Source of the DNA: Flammeovirgaceae bacterium
Lineage (GTDB): Bacteria; Bacteroidota; Bacteroidia; Cytophagales; Cyclobacteriaceae
Reading direction: 5' to 3'
Length of the DNA stretch: 46,670 bases
Assembly: GCA_021298355.1 (NCBI GenBank)
Contig: JAJTEH010000018.1
Location: 1-46,670 of the forward strand
The position numbers and the translations under genes were made by a program. The notes beneath the pieces are model-generated. The model was not told where the DNA came from. It did no database searches and saw nothing but the letters and a program-made list of their open reading frames with translations. Shown here piece by piece: positions 28,180 through 43,195 of the stretch. The first letter of the stretch is position 1; each line of letters starts with the position of its first letter.

Positions 28180-30624
28180 ATGGCAAAACCTAGCGCCATG
28201 CTAATTAATTATCTACTCATTGCATTAAGAACCATTAAGCGGAATAAACTTTATGCTACGCTGAACTTGATAGGTTTAGCCATAGGCATTGCTTGTTGTT
28301 TGTTGCTCGCACTTTACATACAAGACGAGTGGCAATACGATAAACAACATAAGGACCTCGAAAACTTATATAGAATCGTTACTCATTTTGATAGAGAAGG
28401 AGATTTTGTTTCTTCAGGTACAACATCTCCACCGGTAGCCCAAACCATGCGAAGCGAAATTCCTGAGATAGAAGTAGCCGCCAGGGTTTTTAATCCTCCC
28501 GGAGTAGATCTTAACTTAATTAAATATGAAGACAAAATATTTTACGAGAAAAACGGACAAATAGCAGATTCATCCATCTTCGATATATTCACATACACGT
28601 TTACCGAAGGTTCTGCTACCAACGCCTTAAACCGCCCCAATACAATTGTTATTTCTACTGTTTTAGCAGAAAAATTGTTTAACAACGGAAATGCTTTAGG
28701 CAAAGTAATAGCAGTATCGCAAGGGCAAGGCTTTGTAGATTACCAGATTACCGCTGTATTTCAGCAACAAGATCAATCGCATTTGCAAGCCAATTTCTTT
28801 ACATCGATAGCAAGCGATGGTTGGGGAACTTTTGTTACGCGAGATCCACGCATGAGCGAAGAATGGGCCGGACAAAATTTTATTCCAGCTTATGTAAGGC
28901 TAACAAAAGAACACTACAAAAAAGCAGTTGAAGATAAGATGAACGCAGTATTGCAAAAATATGGTGCTGCCGATATGCAAGCTTTAGGTTTATACAAGAA
29001 ATTTTCGTTAGAACCTGTAGCCGACATATATCTGAAAAGTGATATCAGACAAACACCCCGTATGCAATACATATACATAATGATGATTATTGCTGGATTT
29101 GTGATGCTAATTGCGTGCGTAAACTTTATGAACCTGGCCACAGCCAAAGCCTCTAAACGCGCTACCGAAATTGGGATAAGAAAAGTAATTGGTGCGAATA
29201 AACGCAATTTAGTTAAACAACTTATTGGAGAATCTTTTCTACTGGTAAGTTTCGCTTGCATTATTGGTTTAACGCTTACCCAACTTGCCTTACCGCTTTT
29301 CAACTATCTAACAGATAAAAATCTAACAATTTTACAAAGTGATTGGAGAATTCTACTTAGCACTATGCTCGGATTAATCATTTTAATTAGTGTTTTAGCT
29401 GGAGCTTATCCTGCTTTATATATGGCATCGTTACAACCTGTTAAAATCTTAAAAAGCAAAAATATTATCAATAACGGTTCGGGTATACTTAGACAAGGAT
29501 TAGTAGTATCCCAATTTGCGATAGCTATTGTATTGGTGATTGGTGTATTTGTTATCAATAAACAAATCACTTTTATGCAAAATAAATCATTGGGCTTTAA
29601 TGCAAATGAACAAATTATTGTACCTCTGCGAACACCCGAAGCACAAAGTCAGTTTAGCAATTTAAGTAAAGCATTAAAAGAGAATAAGGCTATCGTTCAG
29701 GTTAGCGCTACAGATTATGCACCCGGCAGCAGAATATGGACCGACATGGGTTTTTATAAAAGTGGAAGCAATACAGACAACTCAATTCTACACAGAAGAA
29801 ACCGTATCGATGTAAATTACATGCAGCAAATGGATATAAAATTACTATCAGGTAGATACTTTTCTGATAATCTTGAAATGGAGAAGAGCAATATAATTGT
29901 AAACGAATCGTCAGCTAAGAGTTTTGGCTTTACCAACGAAGATGCTATCGGGCAGCAAATCTTTTTCGATTGGCAAGGAGAAAAATTTACTTTTACTATT
30001 ATTGGTGTAATGCAAAATTACCATCAGGTATCGCCTAAAGAAAAAATAGATCCGATTGCATTTGAGTTAGCAGAAGATCCAAACTCTTTAAGTGTGTTGG
30101 TGGCACAAGTAGATGGAAAGGAAATAGAAAGTGGAATTGCATCAATGGAAAAAGTCTGGAAAAATATAGTGAAAGATACTCCTTTCAGTTATACATTTTT
30201 ACAAGACGATTTAAACCAACAATATCATCAGGATAAAAAAACAGCTTCGATTATTAACTTATTTGCAGGTATTGCCTTGTTTATTTGTTGCTTAGGTTTA
30301 TACGGTTTGTCGTTGTACATGACAGAAAGAAGGTTTAAGGAAATTGGAATACGAAAAGTTTTAGGAGCTAGTGTGCAGTCTGTAGTACGGCTGATGTCGA
30401 GAGAATATGTAAAACTTATTCTGAGAGCGATGGCGGTATCTTTTCCTTTGGCTTGGTATTTGGCAGATGAATGGTTAAACACTTTTGCTTATCACACAAA
30501 CATTAGTGTACCTATATTTTTATATGCCGGTTTGGTAACGCTAACAATAACTGTGCTTACAGTAAGTATTGAATCTTTAAAAGCAGCAATCATCAATCCT
30601 TCAGAAACGTTAAAAAATGAATAA
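28180..30624 (+). CDS. FtsX/MacB-like ABC transporter permease (1 of 3)
   Basis: The 814-residue protein (808 if the second Met at 28198 is used) has the double-permease plan: helix 1 near residue 25 (YATLNLIGLAIGIACCLLLAL), a periplasmic MacB_PCD domain of about 230 residues, three helices near 290-420 with FMNLATAKASKRATEIGIRKVIGA, a second periplasmic domain, and a final three-helix block with RRFKEIGIRKVLGASV. Such proteins are mechanotransmission-type ABC permeases that act with a separate ATPase in export of peptides, lipids or antibiotics, or in signalling. No ATPase gene is near. It is the first of three paralogues 12-15 bp apart. Confidence 0.88.
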   Translation: MAKPSAMLINYLLIALRTIKRNKLYATLNLIGLAIGIACCLLLALYIQDEWQYDKQHKDLENLYRIVTHFDREGDFVSSGTTSPPVAQTMRSEIPEIEVAARVFNPPGVDLNLIKYEDKIFYEKNGQIADSSIFDIFTYTFTEGSATNALNRPNTIVISTVLAEKLFNNGNALGKVIAVSQGQGFVDYQITAVFQQQDQSHLQANFFTSIASDGWGTFVTRDPRMSEEWAGQNFIPAYVRLTKEHYKKAVEDKMNAVLQKYGAADMQALGLYKKFSLEPVADIYLKSDIRQTPRMQYIYIMMIIAGFVMLIACVNFMNLATAKASKRATEIGIRKVIGANKRNLVKQLIGESFLLVSFACIIGLTLTQLALPLFNYLTDKNLTILQSDWRILLSTMLGLIILISVLAGAYPALYMASLQPVKILKSKNIINNGSGILRQGLVVSQFAIAIVLVIGVFVINKQITFMQNKSLGFNANEQIIVPLRTPEAQSQFSNLSKALKENKAIVQVSATDYAPGSRIWTDMGFYKSGSNTDNSILHRRNRIDVNYMQQMDIKLLSGRYFSDNLEMEKSNIIVNESSAKSFGFTNEDAIGQQIFFDWQGEKFTFTIIGVMQNYHQVSPKEKIDPIAFELAEDPNSLSVLVAQVDGKEIESGIASMEKVWKNIVKDTPFSYTFLQDDLNQQYHQDKKTASIINLFAGIALFICCLGLYGLSLYMTERRFKEIGIRKVLGASVQSVVRLMSREYVKLILRAMAVSFPLAWYLADEWLNTFAYHTNISVPIFLYAGLVTLTITVLTVSIESLKAAIINPSETLKNE

Positions 30625-30636
30625 CCTCTCTTTTAT

Positions 30637-33000
30637 ATGATAAGAAATTATTTGCTCATCGCATTGCGAAACATTCAACGCAATTCAGTTTACTCGTTCA
30701 TCAATATTTTCGGCTTAGCAGTTGGAATTGCCAGTAGTATTTTAATTTTACTTTGGGTAGCAGATGAAACTTCGTACGATGCCTTTCATGAAAATGCTGA
30801 CCGATTAAGTCAGGTATGGATAAACGCTACCTACGATGGTAAAGTAAATACATTTAACTCTGTTCCGTACCCAACCTATGGCGCGTTAAAAACAACAGAT
30901 AGCAGAATAAAAAACACAGCCATTGCTAATTGGGGTGGAGAAAGTTTACTAGCAGTAGGGGAAACGCGCGCTAACAAGTTTAGCTTTTATGCCAGTGAGG
31001 AGTTTCTTACCATGTTTAAGTTCGAGCTTTTAAAAGGAGATCCAGCCCAAGTATTAAAAGATCCAAACTCTATAGTAATTAGTGAATCAACCGCAAAAAC
31101 ATTTTTTGGAGATAAAGATCCGATTAATCAATTGATAAAGGTGGACAATAGTTCTGAGTTAAAAGTAACGGGAGTAATGAAAGATTTTCCGAAAAATTCT
31201 TCATTTGATTTCGAAGTTCTCATTCCCATTAAACAACTGGAAAGCCAGGATTGGATGCGCAATTCTATAAACAATTGGGGCAATTATTCTTTTCAAGTTT
31301 ATGTAGAGTTACAACCCGAAGTAAAGAAAGAAGATGTAGATGCAGCAATAAAAGATTTATTAATTAAAAACGGACAAACAGATGTACCTCGCGAATTTTT
31401 CTTACATCCTTTAGATAAGTGGCGTTTATACTCAAACTTCGAAAATGGTAAAATAAGCGGAGGTATGATAGATTATGTAAAAGGGTTTAGCATAATCGCC
31501 ATTTTTGTTTTAGTTATAGCCTGCATCAACTTTATGAATTTGGCTACAGCCAGAAGCGAAAGACGCGCAAGAGAAGTTGGTGTACGAAAAAGTGTGGGCT
31601 CGAAAAGAAGAGATTTAGTATTTCAATTTTTAGGCGAATCTATTTTAATAACAACAATCGCATTTATTATTTCCATTATTATAGTGGAAGCAGCACTTCC
31701 ATTTTATAACGATCTCACACAAAAACAACTTGGCCTCGATTTTTCGAGTGCAAACTTTTGGTTAGGCGCTATTGCCATCATTCTGATAACCGGTGTTTTT
31801 GCGGGCAGCTATCCTGCTTTGTATCTGTCTAGTTTTAATCCTGTTAAAGTTTTAAAAGGGAAAATTCAACAAGGAAAAAGCGTAGCTACGCCAAGAAAGA
31901 TTTTAGTTATTCTTCAGTTTTTCTTTTCTACACTTTTAATAATAGGCACCATCGTTATAACAGAACAAATAGCTTTTGTAAAGGCTAGAGATTTAGGCTA
32001 CAACCAAGAAAATTTAATAACTATACCCTATACAACAGAAATAGCACAAAGTTTTAAAGCGATACGGCAAGAGTTAGTAGCAACAGGTGCAGTTTCATCT
32101 ATTACAAAATCGAATAGCCCGATAACAGAAGTATACTCAAATAATTTTTTAGAATGGCCGGGCAAACCAGAAGAGCAAAAAGTACTGTTTATTACTATTG
32201 CAACAGAATTAGATTACACCAAAACAATGGGCATTAAAATACTGGAAGGAAGAGATTTTATAGACGACCGTGATACAGCATCAATTTTAATTAACAAAGC
32301 AGCAGCAGAGGTAATGGGCTTAAAAGAAACTGTAGGTACAAAGGTTTCTTTTTGGGGAGAAGAAAACCGCGCAACAATTGTTGGAATAATTGATAACGTA
32401 ACGATGGGTTCGCCCTACAGACAAGCTTCGCCTTTATTCGTAACCTACATACCCGATTGGGCCAGTGCTGTTACAGTAAGGCTCGAACCTACTGCCGATT
32501 TACCCGGAGCAATAGCAAAAGTTGAAAGTGTGTTTAAAAAATTTAATCCTGCTTATCCGTTTGAATACACTTTTGTAGATGAACAGTTCGCTAAAAAATT
32601 TGCTACCATTAATTTAATCAGCACGCTTTCTAAATTGTTTGCTTTGTTGGCCATTATTATTACCGGGTTAGGATTATTCGGTTTGGCATCTTTCACTGCA
32701 GAGCAGAGAACCAAAGAAATAGGGATAAGAAAAGTATTAGGTGCTTCTGTAACAGGGTTAGTGAGTTTAATATCCAAAGAATTTTCGTGGTTAGTAATTA
32801 TAGCCATGTTGGTTTCATCTCCTGTGGCCTGGTATACCTTAAACTCTTTCTTAGAAAGATATCCGTATAGAATTGAGTTTCCCTGGTGGTCGTTACTACT
32901 AGCTGGTGGAATTGCTTTACTTTTTGCTTTGCTCATTGTAAGCATACAGGCCTTTAAAGCAGCTACAGCAAACCCATCTAAAAGTTTAAGAAGCGAGTAA
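30637..33000 (+). CDS. FtsX/MacB-like ABC transporter permease (2 of 3)
   Basis: The 787-residue protein has the same plan as its neighbours: N-terminal helix (FINIFGLAVGIASSILILLWVA), MacB_PCD domain, FMNLATARSERRAREVGVRKSVGS at the first FtsX block, and EQRTKEIGIRKVLGASVTGLV at the second. Both conserved E(I/V)G(I/V)RK coupling motifs are intact. It lies 12 bp after copy 1 and 15 bp before copy 3, so all three are probably one transcript. Function follows from the family only; the substrate is unknown. Confidence 0.88.
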   Translation: MIRNYLLIALRNIQRNSVYSFINIFGLAVGIASSILILLWVADETSYDAFHENADRLSQVWINATYDGKVNTFNSVPYPTYGALKTTDSRIKNTAIANWGGESLLAVGETRANKFSFYASEEFLTMFKFELLKGDPAQVLKDPNSIVISESTAKTFFGDKDPINQLIKVDNSSELKVTGVMKDFPKNSSFDFEVLIPIKQLESQDWMRNSINNWGNYSFQVYVELQPEVKKEDVDAAIKDLLIKNGQTDVPREFFLHPLDKWRLYSNFENGKISGGMIDYVKGFSIIAIFVLVIACINFMNLATARSERRAREVGVRKSVGSKRRDLVFQFLGESILITTIAFIISIIIVEAALPFYNDLTQKQLGLDFSSANFWLGAIAIILITGVFAGSYPALYLSSFNPVKVLKGKIQQGKSVATPRKILVILQFFFSTLLIIGTIVITEQIAFVKARDLGYNQENLITIPYTTEIAQSFKAIRQELVATGAVSSITKSNSPITEVYSNNFLEWPGKPEEQKVLFITIATELDYTKTMGIKILEGRDFIDDRDTASILINKAAAEVMGLKETVGTKVSFWGEENRATIVGIIDNVTMGSPYRQASPLFVTYIPDWASAVTVRLEPTADLPGAIAKVESVFKKFNPAYPFEYTFVDEQFAKKFATINLISTLSKLFALLAIIITGLGLFGLASFTAEQRTKEIGIRKVLGASVTGLVSLISKEFSWLVIIAMLVSSPVAWYTLNSFLERYPYRIEFPWWSLLLAGGIALLFALLIVSIQAFKAATANPSKSLRSE

Positions 33001-33015
33001 TTTAAATTTCATGGT

Positions 33016-35451
33016 ATGATTAAGAGTTATCTTACATTTTTGTTGCGTGTTTTAAACAAGAATAAAACACATACGCTAATTAACATAACCGGCTTATCGA
33101 TAGGAATAAGTACCTGTTTGGTTATATTTTTATTGGTACATCACGAATTTAGCTTTGATAAGCATATACCTAACCGTGATAGCGTATATCGAATTTATAC
33201 CGAGTTTAATGGAGCTTTTAAAGGAACCAACAGAGGGGTTGCCAATGGAGTTCATCAGTTTTTTCAGGAGAATTTTACCCAGCATGGTAAAGTTGTAGAA
33301 TTACACACATACGGAACGCAGGTAAAGTTAGCTCCGGGTAAGCAAGCAGAAAATTTTAAGTTAGATAACGGAATCACTTTTGCAGATAGTAATTTCTTTC
33401 AGGTGTTTCCAAAGAAATGGTTAGCTGGTAACATGGCGGATTTAAACAATCCGTATAAAGCAGTTTTAACAGAAAAGGCTTCACAAATTTTGTTTGGTGC
33501 GTTATCTCCTGAGCAATACCTCAACAAAGAATTTATCGTAAATGATTCTGTACTTTTTTCAGTAGCAGGAATTGTAGCAAACGAACAGCAAAATTCTGAT
33601 TTTGATTTTGCCTGTTATTTGTCTGCGGCCAGTATGGCACAAAAAGAATTTAAAGAAAATTACCAAAGAAATGATTGGCAAAGTACAAGCAGTGGCGAAA
33701 TTTTAATGGTTAAGGTAGATGAGAATAAAAATTTAGTACATCTGCAAACTATAATTGATGCGGCCAACAAACGCTTCAACGAAGTAAATACCGATAAAGG
33801 TTGGATGGTTTCTTACAAAGAGCAACCCTTGGCAGATATTCATTTTAATGGTGATTTAGGAATTTTTGATCATATCAACTCAACGGCTCATAAACCTTCT
33901 CTCTACATTTTGTGTGGTGTAGCTTTTCTTATATTACTGCTGGCTGCCATTAACTTCATCAACTTAGAAACAGCTCAGTCTGTAAAACGTGCAAAAGAAA
34001 TTGGAATTCGTAAAGTGTTAGGGAGTTCGCGTTGGCAATTGGTATTTCATTTCTTGTTTCAATCGGTATTGCTAACCAGCATAAGTGCCATTATTGCTAT
34101 ACCCTTAGCAGAAATAAGTTTTGTGTTGTTTAAAGATTTTCTTCCATCGGGTTTAACTATTCAATTTACTAACCCTGCCCTTTGGTTAATTCTTGCTGCA
34201 CTTATTTTATTTATCGGTATACTAGCAGGAGCCTATCCGGCATTTATCATGACGGACTTCAAGCCTGCTTCTGCACTCAAAAATTTAAGCGCAATAGACA
34301 AAACCAATTCGCGTACGCAGTATATGCGCAAAGTGCTGATTACGTTTCAATTTGGCTTTGCTCAGGTTTTAATTATAGGCACGTTAGTATTAGTAGCACA
34401 AATTGATTTTGTGCTGAATAAAGACATGGGCTTTAATCCTGAATCTGTAATTCATATTTATACACCTTACGATGAACCCATACATAAAGTACAAACCTTT
34501 AAGAATGAAATAGAGAAAATTGCGGCCATAAAAAAACTAAGTTTAAACAATGCAGCACCAGCCGAAAGTAGCTTTACCAGCAACACACTAAAGTTTAAGA
34601 ATAAAAACAAGGAAGAAATCGAAGTAAATGCATTTAGAAAATTCGGTGATGAAAACTACATCGATTTATATAACATTCAGTTGCTTGCTGGCCGGTATGC
34701 AAATCCTGCGGATACACTTACAGAAATTGTGATAAACGAAGAACTTGCAAAAGAATTTGGGTTAGAGATAAACGAGGCTATAGGTAAGTTTGTAAATGTA
34801 AACGACAACTCTATACCTATCGTGGGTGTTGTTAAAAATTTTAATATAGCATCTCTTAAAACAAAAGTATCGCCTGTTTACATGGCTTACGAAAAATCTA
34901 ATTTTACGAAGCTATCCGTAAAATTAGAGTATAACAACGACAATCTGGCGTTGGATGAAAACATAAAAAAGATGGAAAGCGCCTGGAAAAAAGTGTATCT
35001 CGATTACCCTTTCGAATATCAATTCGTAGACGAAAACATCGAGAACTTTTATAAAAGAGAAAGACAGATGACTAAACTAGCCACTGCGGCAGTTGTACTT
35101 TCTATTGTTATTTCATGTTTAGGTTTATTCGGCTTAATTTCTTTAGCTGCTATTCAAAGAACAAAAGAAATTGGCATCAGAAAAACGCTAGGGGCAAGTG
35201 TAAGCCAAATCGTGCTTTTACTCGCTAACGACTTTTTAGTGTTAGTGTTCATCTCATTTGTGTTGGCAAGCCCGGTAGCCTGGTATGTTTCAGAGTATAT
35301 TCTGCAAGATTTTGAGTATAAAATTGATACCCCTTGGTTTGCGTATGTGCTTACGCTGGTAGCTTCTTTAGTAATTGCTTTTACTACTTTATCTTTTCAG
35401 GCAGTTAAAGCAGCAAAGGTTAATCCGGTTGAGAGTTTAAAATCAGAATAA
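33016..35451 (+). CDS. FtsX/MacB-like ABC transporter permease (3 of 3)
   Basis: The 811-residue protein again has the N-terminal helix (LINITGLSIGISTCLVIFLL), a MacB_PCD domain, FINLETAQSVKRAKEIGIRKVLGS at the first FtsX block, a second periplasmic region, and IQRTKEIGIRKTLGASVSQIV at the last. The periplasmic domains differ most from copies 1 and 2, which suggests divergence in partner or ligand. It is the last of the three and is followed within 6 bp by a strong terminator. Confidence 0.88.
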   Translation: MIKSYLTFLLRVLNKNKTHTLINITGLSIGISTCLVIFLLVHHEFSFDKHIPNRDSVYRIYTEFNGAFKGTNRGVANGVHQFFQENFTQHGKVVELHTYGTQVKLAPGKQAENFKLDNGITFADSNFFQVFPKKWLAGNMADLNNPYKAVLTEKASQILFGALSPEQYLNKEFIVNDSVLFSVAGIVANEQQNSDFDFACYLSAASMAQKEFKENYQRNDWQSTSSGEILMVKVDENKNLVHLQTIIDAANKRFNEVNTDKGWMVSYKEQPLADIHFNGDLGIFDHINSTAHKPSLYILCGVAFLILLLAAINFINLETAQSVKRAKEIGIRKVLGSSRWQLVFHFLFQSVLLTSISAIIAIPLAEISFVLFKDFLPSGLTIQFTNPALWLILAALILFIGILAGAYPAFIMTDFKPASALKNLSAIDKTNSRTQYMRKVLITFQFGFAQVLIIGTLVLVAQIDFVLNKDMGFNPESVIHIYTPYDEPIHKVQTFKNEIEKIAAIKKLSLNNAAPAESSFTSNTLKFKNKNKEEIEVNAFRKFGDENYIDLYNIQLLAGRYANPADTLTEIVINEELAKEFGLEINEAIGKFVNVNDNSIPIVGVVKNFNIASLKTKVSPVYMAYEKSNFTKLSVKLEYNNDNLALDENIKKMESAWKKVYLDYPFEYQFVDENIENFYKRERQMTKLATAAVVLSIVISCLGLFGLISLAAIQRTKEIGIRKTLGASVSQIVLLLANDFLVLVFISFVLASPVAWYVSEYILQDFEYKIDTPWFAYVLTLVASLVIAFTTLSFQAVKAAKVNPVESLKSE

Positions 35452-35456
35452 ATCAT

Positions 35457-35482
35457 AAAGCCCGCTAAGCGGGCTTTTTTTT
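35457..35482 (+). terminator. Rho-independent terminator after the three permease genes
   Basis: A perfect 9-bp stem pairs 35457-35465 (AAAGCCCGC) with 35469-35477 around a 3-nt loop, then T through 35482. It separates the permeases from the SDYY-repeat and kinase genes. Confidence 0.93.
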
Positions 35483-35561
35483 GCAATTCAATACACTAGA
35501 ATTACAATTCAATACAGATCATTTTTATACTGATTACCAAACGTTAATCTTTACCGTTGTA

Positions 35562-37004
35562 ATGAAAAAAACAATCGTTATGAAAAGGTTTCAGATAATA
35601 GGGTTAAGCATAGTGTTGGTTTTAGTAAACGTATACGTGCAGGCTCAGGATGGAGGTAAACAAGTAATCAGTTTTAATAACAAAAGAATTGTCTATCAAA
35701 ATTCATTTGGTCCACTTCAAAATTTTCAGGTTGAAGTAAAAGGAGAAATTGAAGTGTCAGACGATGACCGCGATATCATAGGCATGTCTTCTGATGGATA
35801 CCTTGAAATTGAGAAAACCGTATTTGGAAACAGAAGGCGTATCATCATCACCTCACAAGGCAATTCCTTAAAAAGAGAATATTACGAAGGCAGAAGCAAG
35901 CAACCCTACGAACCCGAAGGAAGAAAATGGTTGGCCGAAATTCTACCGGAATTAGTAAGATCTTCTACCATAGGCGCCACAAGTAGAGTAAACAGATTCT
36001 ACAGAAAAGGCGGTACAGCAGCTGTACTGCAAGAAATAGATGATCTCGAAAGCGATTATGTAAAACATCACTATGCTTCTTTACTCATAAAGCAACCCGT
36101 GCAACCCAAAGAGTACCCCGGCATTGTGCAAAGCGTTAGCAAAAGCATCAACTCAGATTATTACCTGGCAAGTTTTATCGAAAAAAATATAGATAAGTTT
36201 TTACTTACACCCGAAGCAACGCATGCGGTATCAATAGCTGCCAACGAAATCACCTCAGATTATTATAAAGCCAGTGTTTTAAAGAAAGCGTTAAGGAGCT
36301 CCCAACTCACTGAAAATTCTTTAAAGTCGATAGTAGCATCGTCTACACAAATTAATTCCGACTATTACCTAAGCGATGTGTTAAACGCTGCGTTAAATAA
36401 AACCTTAACAGACGAGCTGATAGAGCAAATTGCACTAAGTGCAAAGTCAATCGGTTCTGATTATTACTTGGCGCAAGTATTAAATAAACTATTAAACAAA
36501 CAACTTTCTAAAAGCAGTTATCAGAAAGTAATAGAATCTGTAAATGAAATAGGTTCCGATTACTACAAAGCATCGGTTATTCAAAATCTGGCTAACCAAA
36601 GATTATCAACAGACGATTTAAAAAGCATCATCAAACAAGCAAGTACAATTGGTTCAGATTACTATCTAGCTAACGTTTTTGTTCAATTGGTTAAGAGTCA
36701 AAATTTGAATAGCGAAAGCTTTCAGTTTTTAATGGATAATACATCTGCCATCAGCAGCGATTACTACCTAAGCAATGTGTTGGTTACTGCAGTAGATAAA
36801 ACCGATTTAAGCTCCGAGCAACTGCAAAGTATCTTACAAGCTACCAGTAAAATAGCATCAGACCATTACCTTACCACCGTATTGGTAAAAGCTGCACCTA
36901 AAGTAAGAACAGGTAACGAAACAACGAAAGAACAATATAGAAAAACAGCAAAAGAAATTTCTTCTGAAACATATTACGGTAGAGTAATGCGCGCCATTGA
37001 TTAA
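35562..37004 (+). CDS. Exported SDYY-repeat (alpha-solenoid-like) protein
   Basis: The start is ATG 35562 or ATG 35580; the latter (MKRFQIIGLSIVLVLVNVYV, cleavage after QAQ) gives the cleaner signal peptide. The mature N-terminal third holds the motifs SSDGYLEIEKTVFGNRRRIII, EGRKWLAEILPELVR and RVNRFYRKGGTAAVLQEI. The rest is about nine units of 33-34 residues with core I(N/G/S)SDYYLA.VL...L.....L, each predicted as two short helices. Related sequences occur in other bacteria, often attached to or near BlaR1/M56-type peptidases, but no function is established. A terminator lies upstream and a histidine kinase gene starts 36 bp downstream, so it probably belongs to the kinase operon and could be its extracytoplasmic sensor or modulator (inference). 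Confidence 0.75.
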   Translation: MKKTIVMKRFQIIGLSIVLVLVNVYVQAQDGGKQVISFNNKRIVYQNSFGPLQNFQVEVKGEIEVSDDDRDIIGMSSDGYLEIEKTVFGNRRRIIITSQGNSLKREYYEGRSKQPYEPEGRKWLAEILPELVRSSTIGATSRVNRFYRKGGTAAVLQEIDDLESDYVKHHYASLLIKQPVQPKEYPGIVQSVSKSINSDYYLASFIEKNIDKFLLTPEATHAVSIAANEITSDYYKASVLKKALRSSQLTENSLKSIVASSTQINSDYYLSDVLNAALNKTLTDELIEQIALSAKSIGSDYYLAQVLNKLLNKQLSKSSYQKVIESVNEIGSDYYKASVIQNLANQRLSTDDLKSIIKQASTIGSDYYLANVFVQLVKSQNLNSESFQFLMDNTSAISSDYYLSNVLVTAVDKTDLSSEQLQSILQATSKIASDHYLTTVLVKAAPKVRTGNETTKEQYRKTAKEISSETYYGRVMRAID

Positions 37005-37040
37005 TCAATTCACATAAATTATCGTATTTTTATTAGCTTG

Positions 37041-38093
37041 ATGATGGCAAAAAAATTTAAGTTTAATAAATATACCTGGCCAATGGTTGTCGGAACCTTG
37101 GCCTCACTTTTATTTTATACCTATTGGCATTTTACACATGAAGGAGAATTAAAAACAGTTCTCAATAATCCCGCAAAAATATTTATTTCAATCATAGTCG
37201 GTATATCCTTAACCTATATTCAGTTTTTTCTTGATACAATTCTTAACAAGTTGCTTACTTGGAGAAAATATTTTTTACTTCGCTTAACGTCCGGGATATC
37301 CGTAATTCTTCTGCTTTGCACCTTTATTGTTTACCCGGCAACACACTATAATTTAATTAACACTGAAGAAGAACTACCAAAATTACTGGTAATCGTGTTT
37401 ATGTTCGGTATTGTGTATCAGATTACCTACGGAGCAATATATGCTTACTTCTATTTTTCAGTTTTGCAAATAGAAAAAGTAAAATCAGAGAGAATGCAAC
37501 TTGCTTTGCAGTTTCAGTCCTTAAAAAATCAAATTAGTCCGCACTACCTTTTTAATTGCTTAAACACCATTTCATCTCTTATTTATAAAAATCCGCACGT
37601 GGCCGAAAAGTTTATCAGGCGCATGACCGATACCTTTCAATATGTGTTAGGTTGGGAAAAGCAAAAACTGGTGTCGCTAAAAGAAGAACTCAATTTTGTG
37701 AAAGCCTATTTCTTTTTATTGCAAGCCCGTTACGAAAACCAAATCTCGTTAGACATAACCCTGCCTCAAGATTGGTACGAAAAAGCCATTCCACCGCTTA
37801 CCATTCAATTGCTTATCGAGAATGCCATTAAGCATAACGATATGTCTGTAGAACAACCGTTATCCATTCAAGTAAAATCGAATAAACAATACATTGAAGT
37901 GAGCAATGTAATACAAGCTAAAACCACCAAAGAAGAAAGCTTACAAATCGGTTTGCAGAATATACAACAACGATATAGTTTCTTTACAAACAAGAAAGTA
38001 ACCATTAGTCAAGATAAAGAATTTATAGTGTTGCTTCCTTTGCTCGAAAACGCAAGTACTTTTAAAAACGATACTCAATTCCATGAAGCGTAA
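37041..38093 (+). CDS. LytS/YehU-type sensor histidine kinase
   Basis: The start is ATG 37041 or 37044; the protein is about 350 residues. Four hydrophobic helices occupy the first 150 residues with very short loops. The His_kinase domain (PF06580 type) begins LKNQISPHYLFNCLNTISSL with phospho-acceptor His168, followed by the X region, the N box PPLTIQLLIENAIKHN and the G box IGLQNIQQRYSFF. These kinases pair with LytTR response regulators, and one is encoded two genes downstream. No separate sensor domain is present, so the signal should reach it through the membrane helices or a partner. Its 3' end overlaps the next gene by 11 bp. Confidence 0.9.
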   Translation: MMAKKFKFNKYTWPMVVGTLASLLFYTYWHFTHEGELKTVLNNPAKIFISIIVGISLTYIQFFLDTILNKLLTWRKYFLLRLTSGISVILLLCTFIVYPATHYNLINTEEELPKLLVIVFMFGIVYQITYGAIYAYFYFSVLQIEKVKSERMQLALQFQSLKNQISPHYLFNCLNTISSLIYKNPHVAEKFIRRMTDTFQYVLGWEKQKLVSLKEELNFVKAYFFLLQARYENQISLDITLPQDWYEKAIPPLTIQLLIENAIKHNDMSVEQPLSIQVKSNKQYIEVSNVIQAKTTKEESLQIGLQNIQQRYSFFTNKKVTISQDKEFIVLLPLLENASTFKNDTQFHEA

Positions 38094-39126
38094 CCTTATT
38101 TTTTCAATAGGCTTCAGATTGCTCTCCGGATTTGTTTTCGGTTTCATGGTATATGTGTTATTGTTATTCATCAATAATTCTTTATCCGAATTACAAGCCC
38201 TGTTTCAGAATCAGGAATTGTATGTTTGCATTGGCCTTACATATATTTCTTTCGAATGCATCCAGTTTATTTTTTCTCTTTTTAAGTTAAAACGAAAGCT
38301 CAATGATATCACCTTAAAAAAAATAGTAGGAGTTAGCGTTGTAGCCTTATTTAGTGCATGGATTTTAGTAGGAGTAGCCATTAGCTTATATTTTAAATAT
38401 GGTATCGGCTACTCCATTGCGCAAGTAGAACTTCAGCGTTTTTTATTATTGTATGCCATTGCAAATATTCTTTATCTCGTTTTGTTTATAAGTAATACAT
38501 TGCTTATTCGCGAAAACGCACGACAATTAGAGTATGAAGAAACATTACGAAAGAAAATCGAAGCCGATTTTATCTCATTCAAAGCAGAGATTAACCCCGA
38601 CTTACTCTACGAAAGTTTAGAAAACATAATCGCTAACGTTTACCACAACCCCGAGTTTGCTGAAGAACAAATAGACCACCTGGCAGCCATTTATCGCTAT
38701 GGTTTATTACACAAACATAAAGAATTAACAAACCTGCACGAAGAGGTACATGTTTCGGGTAGTTTACTAACACTAGTAAAAGAAAAATATAGCAAGCATA
38801 TCCATTTACAACTGGATGCAAACATACCCGAAGGTATCTTAATTATTCCGGGTTCGTTGTTGGTTATCATCGATCAGGTAGTAAGAAACACATTGATAAC
38901 CCAACAAAAGCCTTTGCATTTTAAATTGTATTACGATGAAGAAGATGCCTATCTGATTTTCGAACATACGTTAAACGAACGTTTATTAAAACACAAAGAA
39001 AGCCTCGAAGCTTATAACAGATTGCAAAGAGCCTATTCGTTTTTTAGCGATAAACCATTTGTACAAGTAAAAGCCGGTAATGAACAATTCATTAAATTGC
39101 CGGCCCTACAAGTAGCACAAGATTAA
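38083..39126 (+). CDS. Degenerate LytS-like histidine kinase homologue (probable pseudokinase)
   Basis: The 347-residue protein has the same four-helix N-terminus and kinase-sized C-terminus as the preceding gene. The phospho-acceptor motif NPHFLFNxLN is NPDLLYESLE, with Asp173 in place of His. The N box is reduced (LVIIDQVVRNTLI instead of LIENAIKHN) and the G box is absent (ESLEAYNRLQRAYSFF). The frame is intact and overlaps the active kinase by 11 bp, which points to a kept, noncatalytic role such as a heterodimer partner or adaptor for the regulator (inference). An orphan ancestral duplication in decay is the alternative, but no stop or frameshift is seen. Confidence 0.82.
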   Translation: MKRNLIFSIGFRLLSGFVFGFMVYVLLLFINNSLSELQALFQNQELYVCIGLTYISFECIQFIFSLFKLKRKLNDITLKKIVGVSVVALFSAWILVGVAISLYFKYGIGYSIAQVELQRFLLLYAIANILYLVLFISNTLLIRENARQLEYEETLRKKIEADFISFKAEINPDLLYESLENIIANVYHNPEFAEEQIDHLAAIYRYGLLHKHKELTNLHEEVHVSGSLLTLVKEKYSKHIHLQLDANIPEGILIIPGSLLVIIDQVVRNTLITQQKPLHFKLYYDEEDAYLIFEHTLNERLLKHKESLEAYNRLQRAYSFFSDKPFVQVKAGNEQFIKLPALQVAQD

Positions 39127-39137
39127 ATAAGCAAAGC

Positions 39138-39917
39138 ATGATGTTTAAGAACATGGTGATAATCGAAGACGAAAACCCCGCAGTAGAAAAACTGCAAAGG
39201 TATTTGCTTCGGTATAACAGCGATGTTAAAATCCTGGCTGTGCTCAATACCGTTCCTGCTGCAATCGAATGGCTCGAGGAAAACCAAGACTTGGCTGACG
39301 TTATCTTCATAGATATTCAACTGCACGACAGACAAAGTTTTGAAATAATAGAAAAAGTAAAGATTGTAAAACCTATCATTTTCGTTACTGCTTATAATGA
39401 TTTTGCACTGCAAGCTTTTAAAGCTAAAGCATTAGATTATTTACTTAAACCCATCACGTACGCAGATCTTGAAACAAGTTTGAAAAAACTGGAATCCATT
39501 GCGCAGCAATTTCAAACAGATACTGCCTTACAAACAAAACTAAAAGAAACGCTAAGCCACTCTACCAAAGAATTTAAAAACAGATTCATGGTAAAGGTTG
39601 GCGATCGCATTAAATCTATTACCTCAGATGAAATTGCTTTGTTTTATGCTGATGGACGAGATGTTTATCTCGTTAATAATGAAGCACGAAAGTTCATAGT
39701 AGATTATACGGTAGAACAGTTAGAAGAACTTGTTGACCCTACTATATTTTTTAGAATCAACAGAAGTTATTTACTTAACATCAATGCCATACAGGAAGTG
39801 AATGTGCACAGCAACAGCCGTTTGAAAATTAAAACACACATTCAATGGACAGACGAGATCATCGTGAGCAGAGAAAAAGTTGCCGACTTCAAAAAATTTT
39901 TTGACGGCAACGTATAA
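39138..39917 (+). CDS. LytTR-family response regulator
   Basis: The 259-residue protein (a start at 39153, MVIIEDENPA, is also possible) has a receiver domain with the acidic pair ED (residues 10-11), phospho-acceptor Asp59 (IFIDIQLHD), Thr84 (FVTAYN) and Lys104 (LLKPI), all intact. The LytTR DNA-binding domain fills about residues 155-259 (FMVKVGDRIKSITSDEIALFYADGRDVYLV...FFRINRSYLLNINAI). It lies 11 bp after the pseudokinase gene and ends 11 bp from the convergent OmpA-type gene. It should be phosphorylated by the upstream kinase and bind direct repeats in target promoters; the targets are unknown. Confidence 0.92.
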   Translation: MMFKNMVIIEDENPAVEKLQRYLLRYNSDVKILAVLNTVPAAIEWLEENQDLADVIFIDIQLHDRQSFEIIEKVKIVKPIIFVTAYNDFALQAFKAKALDYLLKPITYADLETSLKKLESIAQQFQTDTALQTKLKETLSHSTKEFKNRFMVKVGDRIKSITSDEIALFYADGRDVYLVNNEARKFIVDYTVEQLEELVDPTIFFRINRSYLLNINAIQEVNVHSNSRLKIKTHIQWTDEIIVSREKVADFKKFFDGNV

Positions 39918-42241: not shown

Positions 42242-43195
42242 ATGAAAACCCTAATCCGCACCAGCTTGCTTGTTTCGCTGTTATTTACAAGCGTTTTAGC
42301 GCAAGCACAACACCCCGATACCGTTAAAATCGGTGCATACATCATTAATTTGCACGATATCGATTTTAGAAATAAAGAATACACCATTCGGTTTTGGTTG
42401 TGGACGTTATACAAAAATCCATCATTCGATTTTGCGCAGCAGCTAGATATACCCAACGCAAAAGAAATTGAAATACCCAGCCCGCAAATGGATTTAGTAG
42501 AGGGCACCACCTGGCAACTGATGAAACTAAAATGCAAGATGATGCAAGATTGGGAAGTAGAAGATTTTCCTTTTGATAAACAACACTTAATGGTGCGAGT
42601 CGAAAATTCCATCTACGATAAAAGCCGAATGGTTTTCGTGGTCGATGGTCTTGGTAGTGCATACGACAGAGAGTTAACCTTGGAAGGTTGGCGCATCAAT
42701 ACGTTTAAAGTAACCACAGCCGGCAACGAATACACAACTGTTTTTGGCGACCCGAGTAGCACCATGCTACACTCCGAATACGATGCCTTTCAAATAGAGT
42801 TAGATATTGAACGCGATGCATGGGGCTTGTTCTTCAAAATCTTTATCGGCATGTATTTCGCATTTCTCATTTCTATAATCAGTTTTACGTTACAGCCGCA
42901 AGAGTTAGAGCCACGTTTTGGTTTACCTGTCGGTGGATTATTTGCAGCTGTCGGTAATAAATACATCATCGATTCTATTTTACCGGAGTCAACTGCGTTT
43001 ACGTTGGTAGATACACTACACACCATTACGTATTTAAGCATATTAGTAACACTTACCGTATCGGCTATCGCCTTGCATTATTTCGATACAGGTAGAAAAG
43101 AGAAAAGCATTGCAACAAACAAAATAGGCTCAAGGTTGGTAATAGGGTTGTACATTCTCACAAATGCTATGGTTATCTTCAATGCGATAAGTTGA
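42242..43195 (+). CDS. Probable prokaryotic pentameric ligand-gated ion channel (Cys-loop receptor superfamily homologue)
   Basis: The 317-residue protein has a signal peptide (MKTLIRTSLLVSLLFTSVLA, QAQ), an extracellular beta domain of about 170 residues, and four C-terminal helices at about 194-217, 225-246, 254-281 and 295-316. This is the exact order of Cys-loop receptors. The segment WEVEDFPFDKQHLMV (104-118) matches the FPFDxQ loop of the superfamily; as in known prokaryotic members, the loop lacks the two cysteines. Helix 2 (RFGLPVGGLFAAVGNKYIID) is unlike the pore helix of GLIC or ELIC, so ion selectivity cannot be inferred. There is no cytoplasmic loop of note between helices 3 and 4. 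A membrane receptor of the same fold without channel activity is the main alternative. Confidence 0.65.
   Translation: MKTLIRTSLLVSLLFTSVLAQAQHPDTVKIGAYIINLHDIDFRNKEYTIRFWLWTLYKNPSFDFAQQLDIPNAKEIEIPSPQMDLVEGTTWQLMKLKCKMMQDWEVEDFPFDKQHLMVRVENSIYDKSRMVFVVDGLGSAYDRELTLEGWRINTFKVTTAGNEYTTVFGDPSSTMLHSEYDAFQIELDIERDAWGLFFKIFIGMYFAFLISIISFTLQPQELEPRFGLPVGGLFAAVGNKYIIDSILPESTAFTLVDTLHTITYLSILVTLTVSAIALHYFDTGRKEKSIATNKIGSRLVIGLYILTNAMVIFNAIS

Follow-up and report, generated by a model that had tools for sequence, protein, structure and literature searches.

An exported repeat protein, a kinase and a dedicated pseudokinase in a putative self-regulating signalling unit of Bacteroidota

Many sensor kinases have no sensor domain of their own, and where the signal enters such kinases is an open question. 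In this study, we have explored a locus that raises this question in a 46,670-nt stretch of DNA from a Flammeovirgaceae bacterium (assembly GCA_021298355.1, contig JAJTEH010000018.1, positions 1-46,670 of the forward strand), the whole of which is called the window. Four genes of this locus encode an exported protein with SDYY-type repeats (SDYY), a PF06580 kinase (HK), a PF06580 homologue without the acceptor histidine (pHK) and a LytTR response regulator (RR). Based on our results, we assign a probability of about 0.6 to the reading that they form a four-component, self-regulating envelope-sensing system, made up of SDYY as an input or feedback subunit, a membrane complex of HK and pHK, and RR. 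The exported SDYY would sense or report a condition outside the inner membrane and act on the membrane complex of the active HK and its dedicated pHK; HK would autophosphorylate and pass the phosphate to RR, which would then bind direct repeats spaced by 21 bp upstream of the SDYY promoter and switch on the whole operon. With a candidate for the input, a pseudokinase dedicated to the system and a precisely defined operator, this conserved module is a testable case.

A recurrent block of four genes

The module and the elements that precede it in the window are arranged as follows:

35457-35477 (+): intrinsic terminator with a 9-pair stem (6 G-C) and a T tail, lying after the upstream MacB/FtsX permease genes and separating them from the module
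35483-35516 (+): LytTR-type operator, direct repeats GCAATTCAATACA (35483-35495) and ACAATTCAATACA (35504-35516) with a period of 21 bp
35522-35553 (+): promoter-like elements, a T run (35522-35526) and a -7-like element AATCTTTA (35546-35553; family form CAnnTTTG)
35580-37004 (+): SDYY gene, with a beta domain at about 35658-35903 and an alpha solenoid at about 35907-37001
37041-38093 (+): HK gene, PF06580, acceptor His168 at 37542-37544
38083-39126 (+): pHK gene, PF06580 homologue, Asp173 (38599-38601) in the histidine position, N box eroded
39138-39917 (+): RR gene, receiver and LytTR domains, acceptor Asp59 at 39312-39314

A recheck of the four open reading frames (ORFs) reproduced the coordinates, the shared direction and the spacings (36, -11 and 11 bp) given in an initial annotation of this DNA, together with the terminator ahead of them. 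The span given there, 35562-39917, holds the right four genes; its start is probably 35580, and the operator and promoter (35483-35553) had been omitted. We consider the ATG at 35580 a more likely start than those at 35562 or 35481, because the -7-like element would place the transcript start near 35558. The same annotation had considered that a separate transcript might end before 37041, and the terminator scan shows no terminator on the + strand between SDYY and HK.

Using 58 further loci (L031-L088) together with the window, and dropping the duplicates L031, L033 and L036, we found that the gene order sought across Bacteroidota genomes recurs: the complete, ordered SDYY-HK-pHK-RR block is present in 50 of 55 loci. 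(L038 was missed by the phmmer step and stands outside the 55; its SDYY, HK and pHK were nonetheless seen.) Among the carriers of the block is the culturable Fulvivirga imtechensis (L034). The other five comprise SDYY-HK at a contig end (L042), SDYY alone at contig ends (L037, L039) and two truly solitary SDYY genes (L075, L082). Within blocks, the HK of L067 and the SDYY of L066 are each split into two ORFs. Median gaps across loci are 78, -4 and -4 bp for SDYY/HK, HK/pHK and pHK/RR. The flanking genes vary, with some held in common by close relatives, and because the order recurs despite differing flanks the block goes beyond chance.

The genome-wide picture agrees. Among 196 genomes of the window's family, SDYY relatives occur in 46, of which 45 have the block, and the pHK profile also picks out 46 genomes at 317 bits or more, the next score being 182 bits. 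Both proteins are found together in 45 genomes, each alone in one, and neither in 149 (Fisher p = 4e-42, kinship ignored), and several genera are mixed, some members carrying both and others neither. In a sample of 395 Bacteroidota genomes, pHK (E <= 1e-50) is present in six, identical to the six with the SDYY kinase block. These searches score the first 4-10 candidates per genome, so that a divergent copy could escape. A contig scan gave 12 SDYY loci, partly from genomes already found in the family search. The four proteins have also diverged in parallel: over 48 loci (L066 and L067 left out, no control gene), their pairwise distances correlate with r between 0.76 and 0.93 against a permutation maximum of 0.19 (SDYY-pHK 0.81), correlations that partly reflect common species history and to that extent count against our reading.

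That the four genes are chance neighbours without common function is hardly credible, contradicted as it is by their co-occurrence, conserved order and common operator. Rather, the almost one-to-one pairing of SDYY and pHK across genomes, the kept order, the parallel divergence and the shared operator before the first gene give strong sequence-level support to a conserved signalling unit of Bacteroidota, as had been proposed from the window alone. We would rate it as a two-component system that includes both an obligate pseudokinase and a new partner protein. Literature titles and the beginnings of abstracts, a body of text with most subscription papers outside it, contained no description of this module under LytTR-pseudokinase in Bacteroidetes, M56 sensor domains, LytTR-FtsX/MacB or M56-ECF (extracytoplasmic function).

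An active kinase, a kinase homologue without histidine and a complete regulator

HK matches PF06580 at 78.7 bits, keeps the acceptor histidine in QISPHYLFN and the ENAxKHN box, and has 3-4 membrane helices by hydropathy. With this histidine and N box in HK and an intact acceptor site in RR, the two belong with the PF06580/LytTR two-component systems. The Pfam scan found no sensor domain in HK, in agreement with the initial view of a kinase lacking one. The name LytS first given to it is too loose: the 5TMR_LYT membrane sensor domain is the mark of LytS proper, and neither HK nor pHK has a Pfam match to it. RR, earlier called a complete response regulator, deserves the description, with receiver and LytTR domains by Pfam and five receiver residues that are invariant in 50/50 loci. 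A defence system was considered and rejected, the sole PADLOC match being a weak one to the receiver part of RR.

The second kinase homologue is of another kind. Although pHK, like HK, lies above the PF06580 cut-off (35.3 bits), EINPDLLYE replaces the histidine motif, behind four N-terminal membrane helices predicted by hydropathy. The missing histidine, already noticed in the window where an aspartate stands in its place, is a property of the family: HK has histidine in 51/51 loci and pHK in 0/50 (Asp 25, Glu 16, others 9). A loss fixed in this way argues for a positive role of the dead kinase. A quickly built tree of 132 rows sets each of the two groups, HK (53 rows; SH-aLRT 99) and pHK (54 rows; SH-aLRT 100), apart from everything else by a single branch, and 25 other PF06580 kinases belong to neither. 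Conservation is distributed differently in the two proteins, the membrane part being better kept in pHK (0.51 vs 0.40 in HK) and the H, N and G boxes in HK (0.68-0.84 vs 0.38-0.59 in pHK), a pattern that fits a membrane receptor or coupling subunit.

The same erosion of the catalytic boxes beside a kept membrane domain would also suit a pHK that is an independent regulator rather than a subunit of HK: it might, for instance, titrate RR as a decoy or serve as a membrane receptor at a step after the kinase. We regard this as improbable: of the six protein pairs, HK-pHK is the one whose divergence is most closely parallel (0.93), the two genes overlap, their products have a domain in common, and known kinase-pseudokinase pairs heterodimerise. 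One such pseudokinase heterodimer is ChrS-HrrS (PMC9491836), and in FasBCA of Streptococcus pyogenes FasB and FasC form a heterodimer by two-hybrid, one partner being a proposed pseudokinase (PMC12675982). FasBCA, the closest precedent for such a pair, resembles our module in that a single operon encodes two kinase-like membrane proteins together with one response regulator, a feature read here from gene order and overlaps. There are also clear differences: FasC keeps its phospho-acceptor histidine (H246) and its kinase domain is dispensable, whereas the pHK of the window has neither the histidine nor the N box, and the available portion of that source mentions no exported repeat protein such as SDYY. 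By analogy with these pairs, HK and pHK may well act as a heterodimer.

An operator before the first gene

Upstream of SDYY, direct repeats recur at one period. Among 57 upstream regions, 20 have at least 9/10 bases matching at a period of 21, and no other period between 12 and 44 gives more than 3 (range 0-3). This count is a motif-free test, and the position weight matrix (PWM) of the operator was trained on the same loci that it describes. The refined motif is approximately (A/G)CA(G/A)TTCA-N-TACA, twice. When each locus was represented by its top-scoring site at any position on the SDYY strand, the operator was found in 56/58 loci; it is missing only at the solitary genes L075 and L082, the former having one weak site (17.4) on the opposite strand about 5 kb past the gene. 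Distances, checked separately, have a median of 70.5 bp from operator to first in-frame ATG, with 44/56 between 20 and 130 bp. In the window, 35483-35516 is the sole match at PWM >= 12. At a score of 16 or more the operator was not found in the M56, ECF, stand-alone and short-domain loci described below (L109-L114, L151-L162), nor in L115 and L116, two stretches without SDYY.

In most of the 56 aligned loci, a T run and a CAnnTTTG-like element follow the operator at a set spacing. These promoter elements resemble the -33/-7 consensus TTTG/TANNTTTG given for Bacteroidota (PMC6847099), of which the window's own -7 element is a poor match. A sigma-70 promoter scan (9 found, 16.3 expected) is uninformative for Bacteroidota and was set aside. 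Since the operator precedes SDYY in 56/58 loci, the operon probably activates itself, with RR as the putative binder of the repeats and activation favoured over repression. Precedents exist among LytTR proteins: regulators of the LytTR Regulatory System (LRS) type are described as binding 9-bp direct repeats, mostly 12 bp apart, directly upstream of the promoter, with positive feedback (PMC6193735), and AgrA as binding direct repeats upstream of its promoters (PMC4227749). The LRS (HdrRM, BrsRM) share with our module the LytTR regulator and direct repeats of about 21-bp period just upstream of a promoter; they differ in pairing a regulator with a membrane inhibitor and no kinase, as described in the former source, whereas the window has a receiver domain, a kinase and a pseudokinase. 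Two isolated sites may be mentioned here. In G009, a genome lacking SDYY, operator and promoter precede a short broken SDYY relic (L221:3118-3568, minus strand) with an unrelated gene behind it, and in G048 an operator with a well-matching promoter (19.7) precedes a 62-codon ORF (L208:3484-3769, plus strand), a possible small-protein target.

We also searched whole genomes for the operator pattern, using 49 genomes with SDYY plus G087, and 50 SDYY-lacking genomes of the family as control. With up to 3 mismatches there were 122 hits, 52 at SDYY loci and 70 elsewhere, against a background of 54 in the SDYY-lacking genomes and 56 with decoy spacing in the first 50 genomes (decoys were counted only). 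Because the 70 stand so close to this background, most of the hits away from SDYY are due to chance, a wide regulon was rejected, and we claim self-regulation only. In the window genome the pattern gives two hits, the SDYY operator, which is the only intergenic one, and a 3-mismatch hit inside an ORF.

One group of sites nevertheless raises the possibility that the real output lies in MacB/FtsX permeases, as a detoxification or envelope-repair regulon to which self-regulation would be secondary. Twenty-five hits away from SDYY have a core score of at least 20, a list that is complete for that cut-off among the hits with up to 3 mismatches; 13 of them precede a MacB/FtsX permease, compared with 1 among 11 hits in the SDYY-lacking control, and another 3 stand before genes for outer-membrane proteins (two of them tested against PF14905). 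At four of the 13, the permease belongs to a two-gene operon that opens with a PadR-like gene (tested against PF03551 at one site). Several things make a permease output unlikely in our view. The window genome has 13 MacB/FtsX-type permeases and the operator stands before none of them; the hits away from SDYY barely exceed background; and all 13 sites score far below the SDYY loci as promoters (-32.1 to 0.5, with 4/13 above the random 95th percentile of -7.1, against an SDYY median of 17.5). Moreover, another LytTR regulator could own the sites, several of which belong to a single genus; decoy hits were neither scored nor placed in context, and the choice began by eye, 12 of 14 extra operator regions so picked being among the 25 and the other 13 added later.

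A looser link to these permeases is suggestive. Three tandem duplicated permeases of this type (PF12704, PF02687) lie upstream of the module at 28180-35451 (+); the neighbouring genes that were inspected showed none for an ATPase. Across loci, a permease lies within two genes of SDYY at 9/70, and permeases make up 16/259 near genes compared with 4/266 far ones (p 0.006, the genes not being independent). Operator-like sites before lipoprotein-like genes (L211, L219, L225), in genomes with and without SDYY, perhaps belong to another LytTR regulator.

SDYY as candidate input and its relatives in other systems

The exported, alpha-solenoid-like nature first proposed for SDYY is borne out by its one N-terminal hydrophobic segment and by an AlphaFold2 model (38 sequences; mean pLDDT 91.5), to which a beta domain can now be added: in the model, a signal segment leads into the beta domain at residues 33-114, and residues 116-480 form an alpha solenoid of two-helix repeats, the sequence having about ten SDYY-type repeats. 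Searches of SDYY in Pfam, NCBIfam and the PDB gave no match of note, and a search for plasmid-borne relatives gave no match. Fold identity of the whole model was not accepted, as the Foldseek hits in the PDB (12 at E <= 0.001, query TM 0.10-0.35) are generic solenoids. Across L032-L088 and the window, the repeat signature is mostly uniform within one protein and switches between lineages (SDYY, SDHY, SDYE, SDFE, SNTE, SSSE), a pattern such as in concerted evolution.

In the main rival to our reading, SDYY is the output, an envelope-protective or scaffold protein controlled by the two-component system. It is the sole non-signalling product of its operon, the window genome has no intergenic operator hit (<= 3 mismatches) besides the one at this operon, solitary SDYY genes exist, and SDYY genes tend to adjoin MacB/FtsX permeases in the proportions given above. 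We consider this rival rather unlikely, though it deserves more weight than an independent pHK or a permease output, for two reasons that come from relatives outside the kinase block: some M56 proteins include SDYY-type repeats or, in one case, the beta domain, and the signalling partners of the family are of three kinds, as would be expected of an input domain more than of an effector.

These relatives were found in wider samples. In the 395 Bacteroidota genomes, the SDYY family occurs in 12, six of them with the kinase block. Two of the others (G443, G374) have the order BlaI-M56-SDYY, and the M56 protein itself ends in SDYY-type repeats; two (G578, G442) have an ECF sigma factor, a small anti-sigma-like protein without Pfam match, a small membrane protein (with a weak DUF6249 match in G442) and SDYY; and in two (G550, G566) the family is represented by a short beta-domain protein alone. 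A sample of the class of G443 (5/175 genomes with the family) added G610, again BlaI-M56-SDYY with C-terminal SDYY-type repeats in the M56 protein, G583 with the short form, and G604, in which the SDYY beta domain lies behind the M56 domain in one protein (E 8.4e-9; L160:2277-4169, minus strand). This fusion has, by eye, a coiled-coil look in place of the repeats. In the family of G578, SDYY relatives occur in 10/147 genomes: four are in ECF contexts, five stand alone, and the last is a short form with DUF6249-like and sigma genes nearby. The concern that SDYY might be found mostly away from kinases has two answers: it does not apply in the window's own family, with the block in 45 of 46 genomes, and the family of G578 differs (ECF in 4/10, no regulator neighbours in 5/10). 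Stand-alone proteins of 116-128 aa with the SDYY beta domain only were also seen (L113, L114, L159, L161, L162), L159 adjoining a DUF6249-like gene near a sigma factor gene, and among the stand-alone SDYY genes of one family (L152-L156) L153 and L156 adjoin MacB/FtsX permeases.

BlaR1/MecR1-BlaI systems consist of an M56 peptidase plus a repressor, and in BlaR1-type sensors the sensor domain is placed behind the M56 domain. The likeness to our module lies in distant relatives, whose M56 proteins end in SDYY-type repeats or, in one case, carry the SDYY beta domain C-terminally. For this reason we favour SDYY as the input, where it may contact the HK-pHK complex. Similar SDY repeats may also occur in M56 proteins of Acidobacteriota and Gemmatimonadota, phyla beyond those covered here. 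The idea that the repeat protein supplies the missing input, put forward in the initial annotation, is thus backed by the M56 contexts, including one fusion, and keeps its conditional standing. The module differs from BlaR1/MecR1-BlaI in that its four window proteins have no M56 or BlaI match and its output is a LytTR regulator; M56 and BlaI are found in G443, G374 and G610. Another comparison is with the Toastrack accessory proteins of LiaF/VraT type, which have a beta domain, stand beside two-component systems and in some contexts occur with LytTR (PMC11237479). SDYY would likewise be an accessory envelope protein with a beta domain beside a two-component system; it differs in being predicted exported, whereas Toastrack is predicted intracellular in that source. 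Membership of the Toastrack (DUF4097/2154/2807) or GIN families was rejected for the beta domain, as the window protein has no Pfam match to them at E <= 1, and Toastrack models are absent among the 25 listed of 77 Pfam families for 26 SDYY members.

Further points weigh against our preferred reading. Autoregulation alone suits SDYY as an effector equally well, and the beta domain gave nothing at E <= 0.001 with Foldseek against the PDB and has no recognised fold there. In the family of G578, the 5/10 genomes just mentioned carry a stand-alone SDYY-type gene with no regulator neighbours. SDYY occurs without pHK in G176, and in G087, which has pHK without SDYY on a contig that starts inside HK, HK-pHK has no RR on the contig (L115:1-3518). 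Finally, a 226-codon ORF lies between operator and SDYY in L039 (L039:6817-7497, plus strand), possibly an extra member of the operon.

A broader proposal is that SDYY represents a family of extracytoplasmic sensors, not covered by any Pfam model, that can be transferred between systems and has been plugged into LytTR two-component systems, BlaI/M56 proteolytic relays and ECF sigma/anti-sigma pairs, the two-component version separating signal entry from catalysis by means of an obligate pseudokinase receptor subunit. We offer it tentatively and judge it somewhat short of an even chance. If true, one extracytoplasmic family would serve three unrelated chassis, and a signal found in one could be checked in the others.

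Downstream of the module, an exported-looking protein is encoded at 42242-43195 (+), with a weak match to PF02931, the neurotransmitter-gated channel ligand-binding domain (E 1.7e-6, 28.1 bits vs a cut-off of 26), and a C-terminal half that is hydrophobic by eye; it is possibly a relative of pentameric channels.

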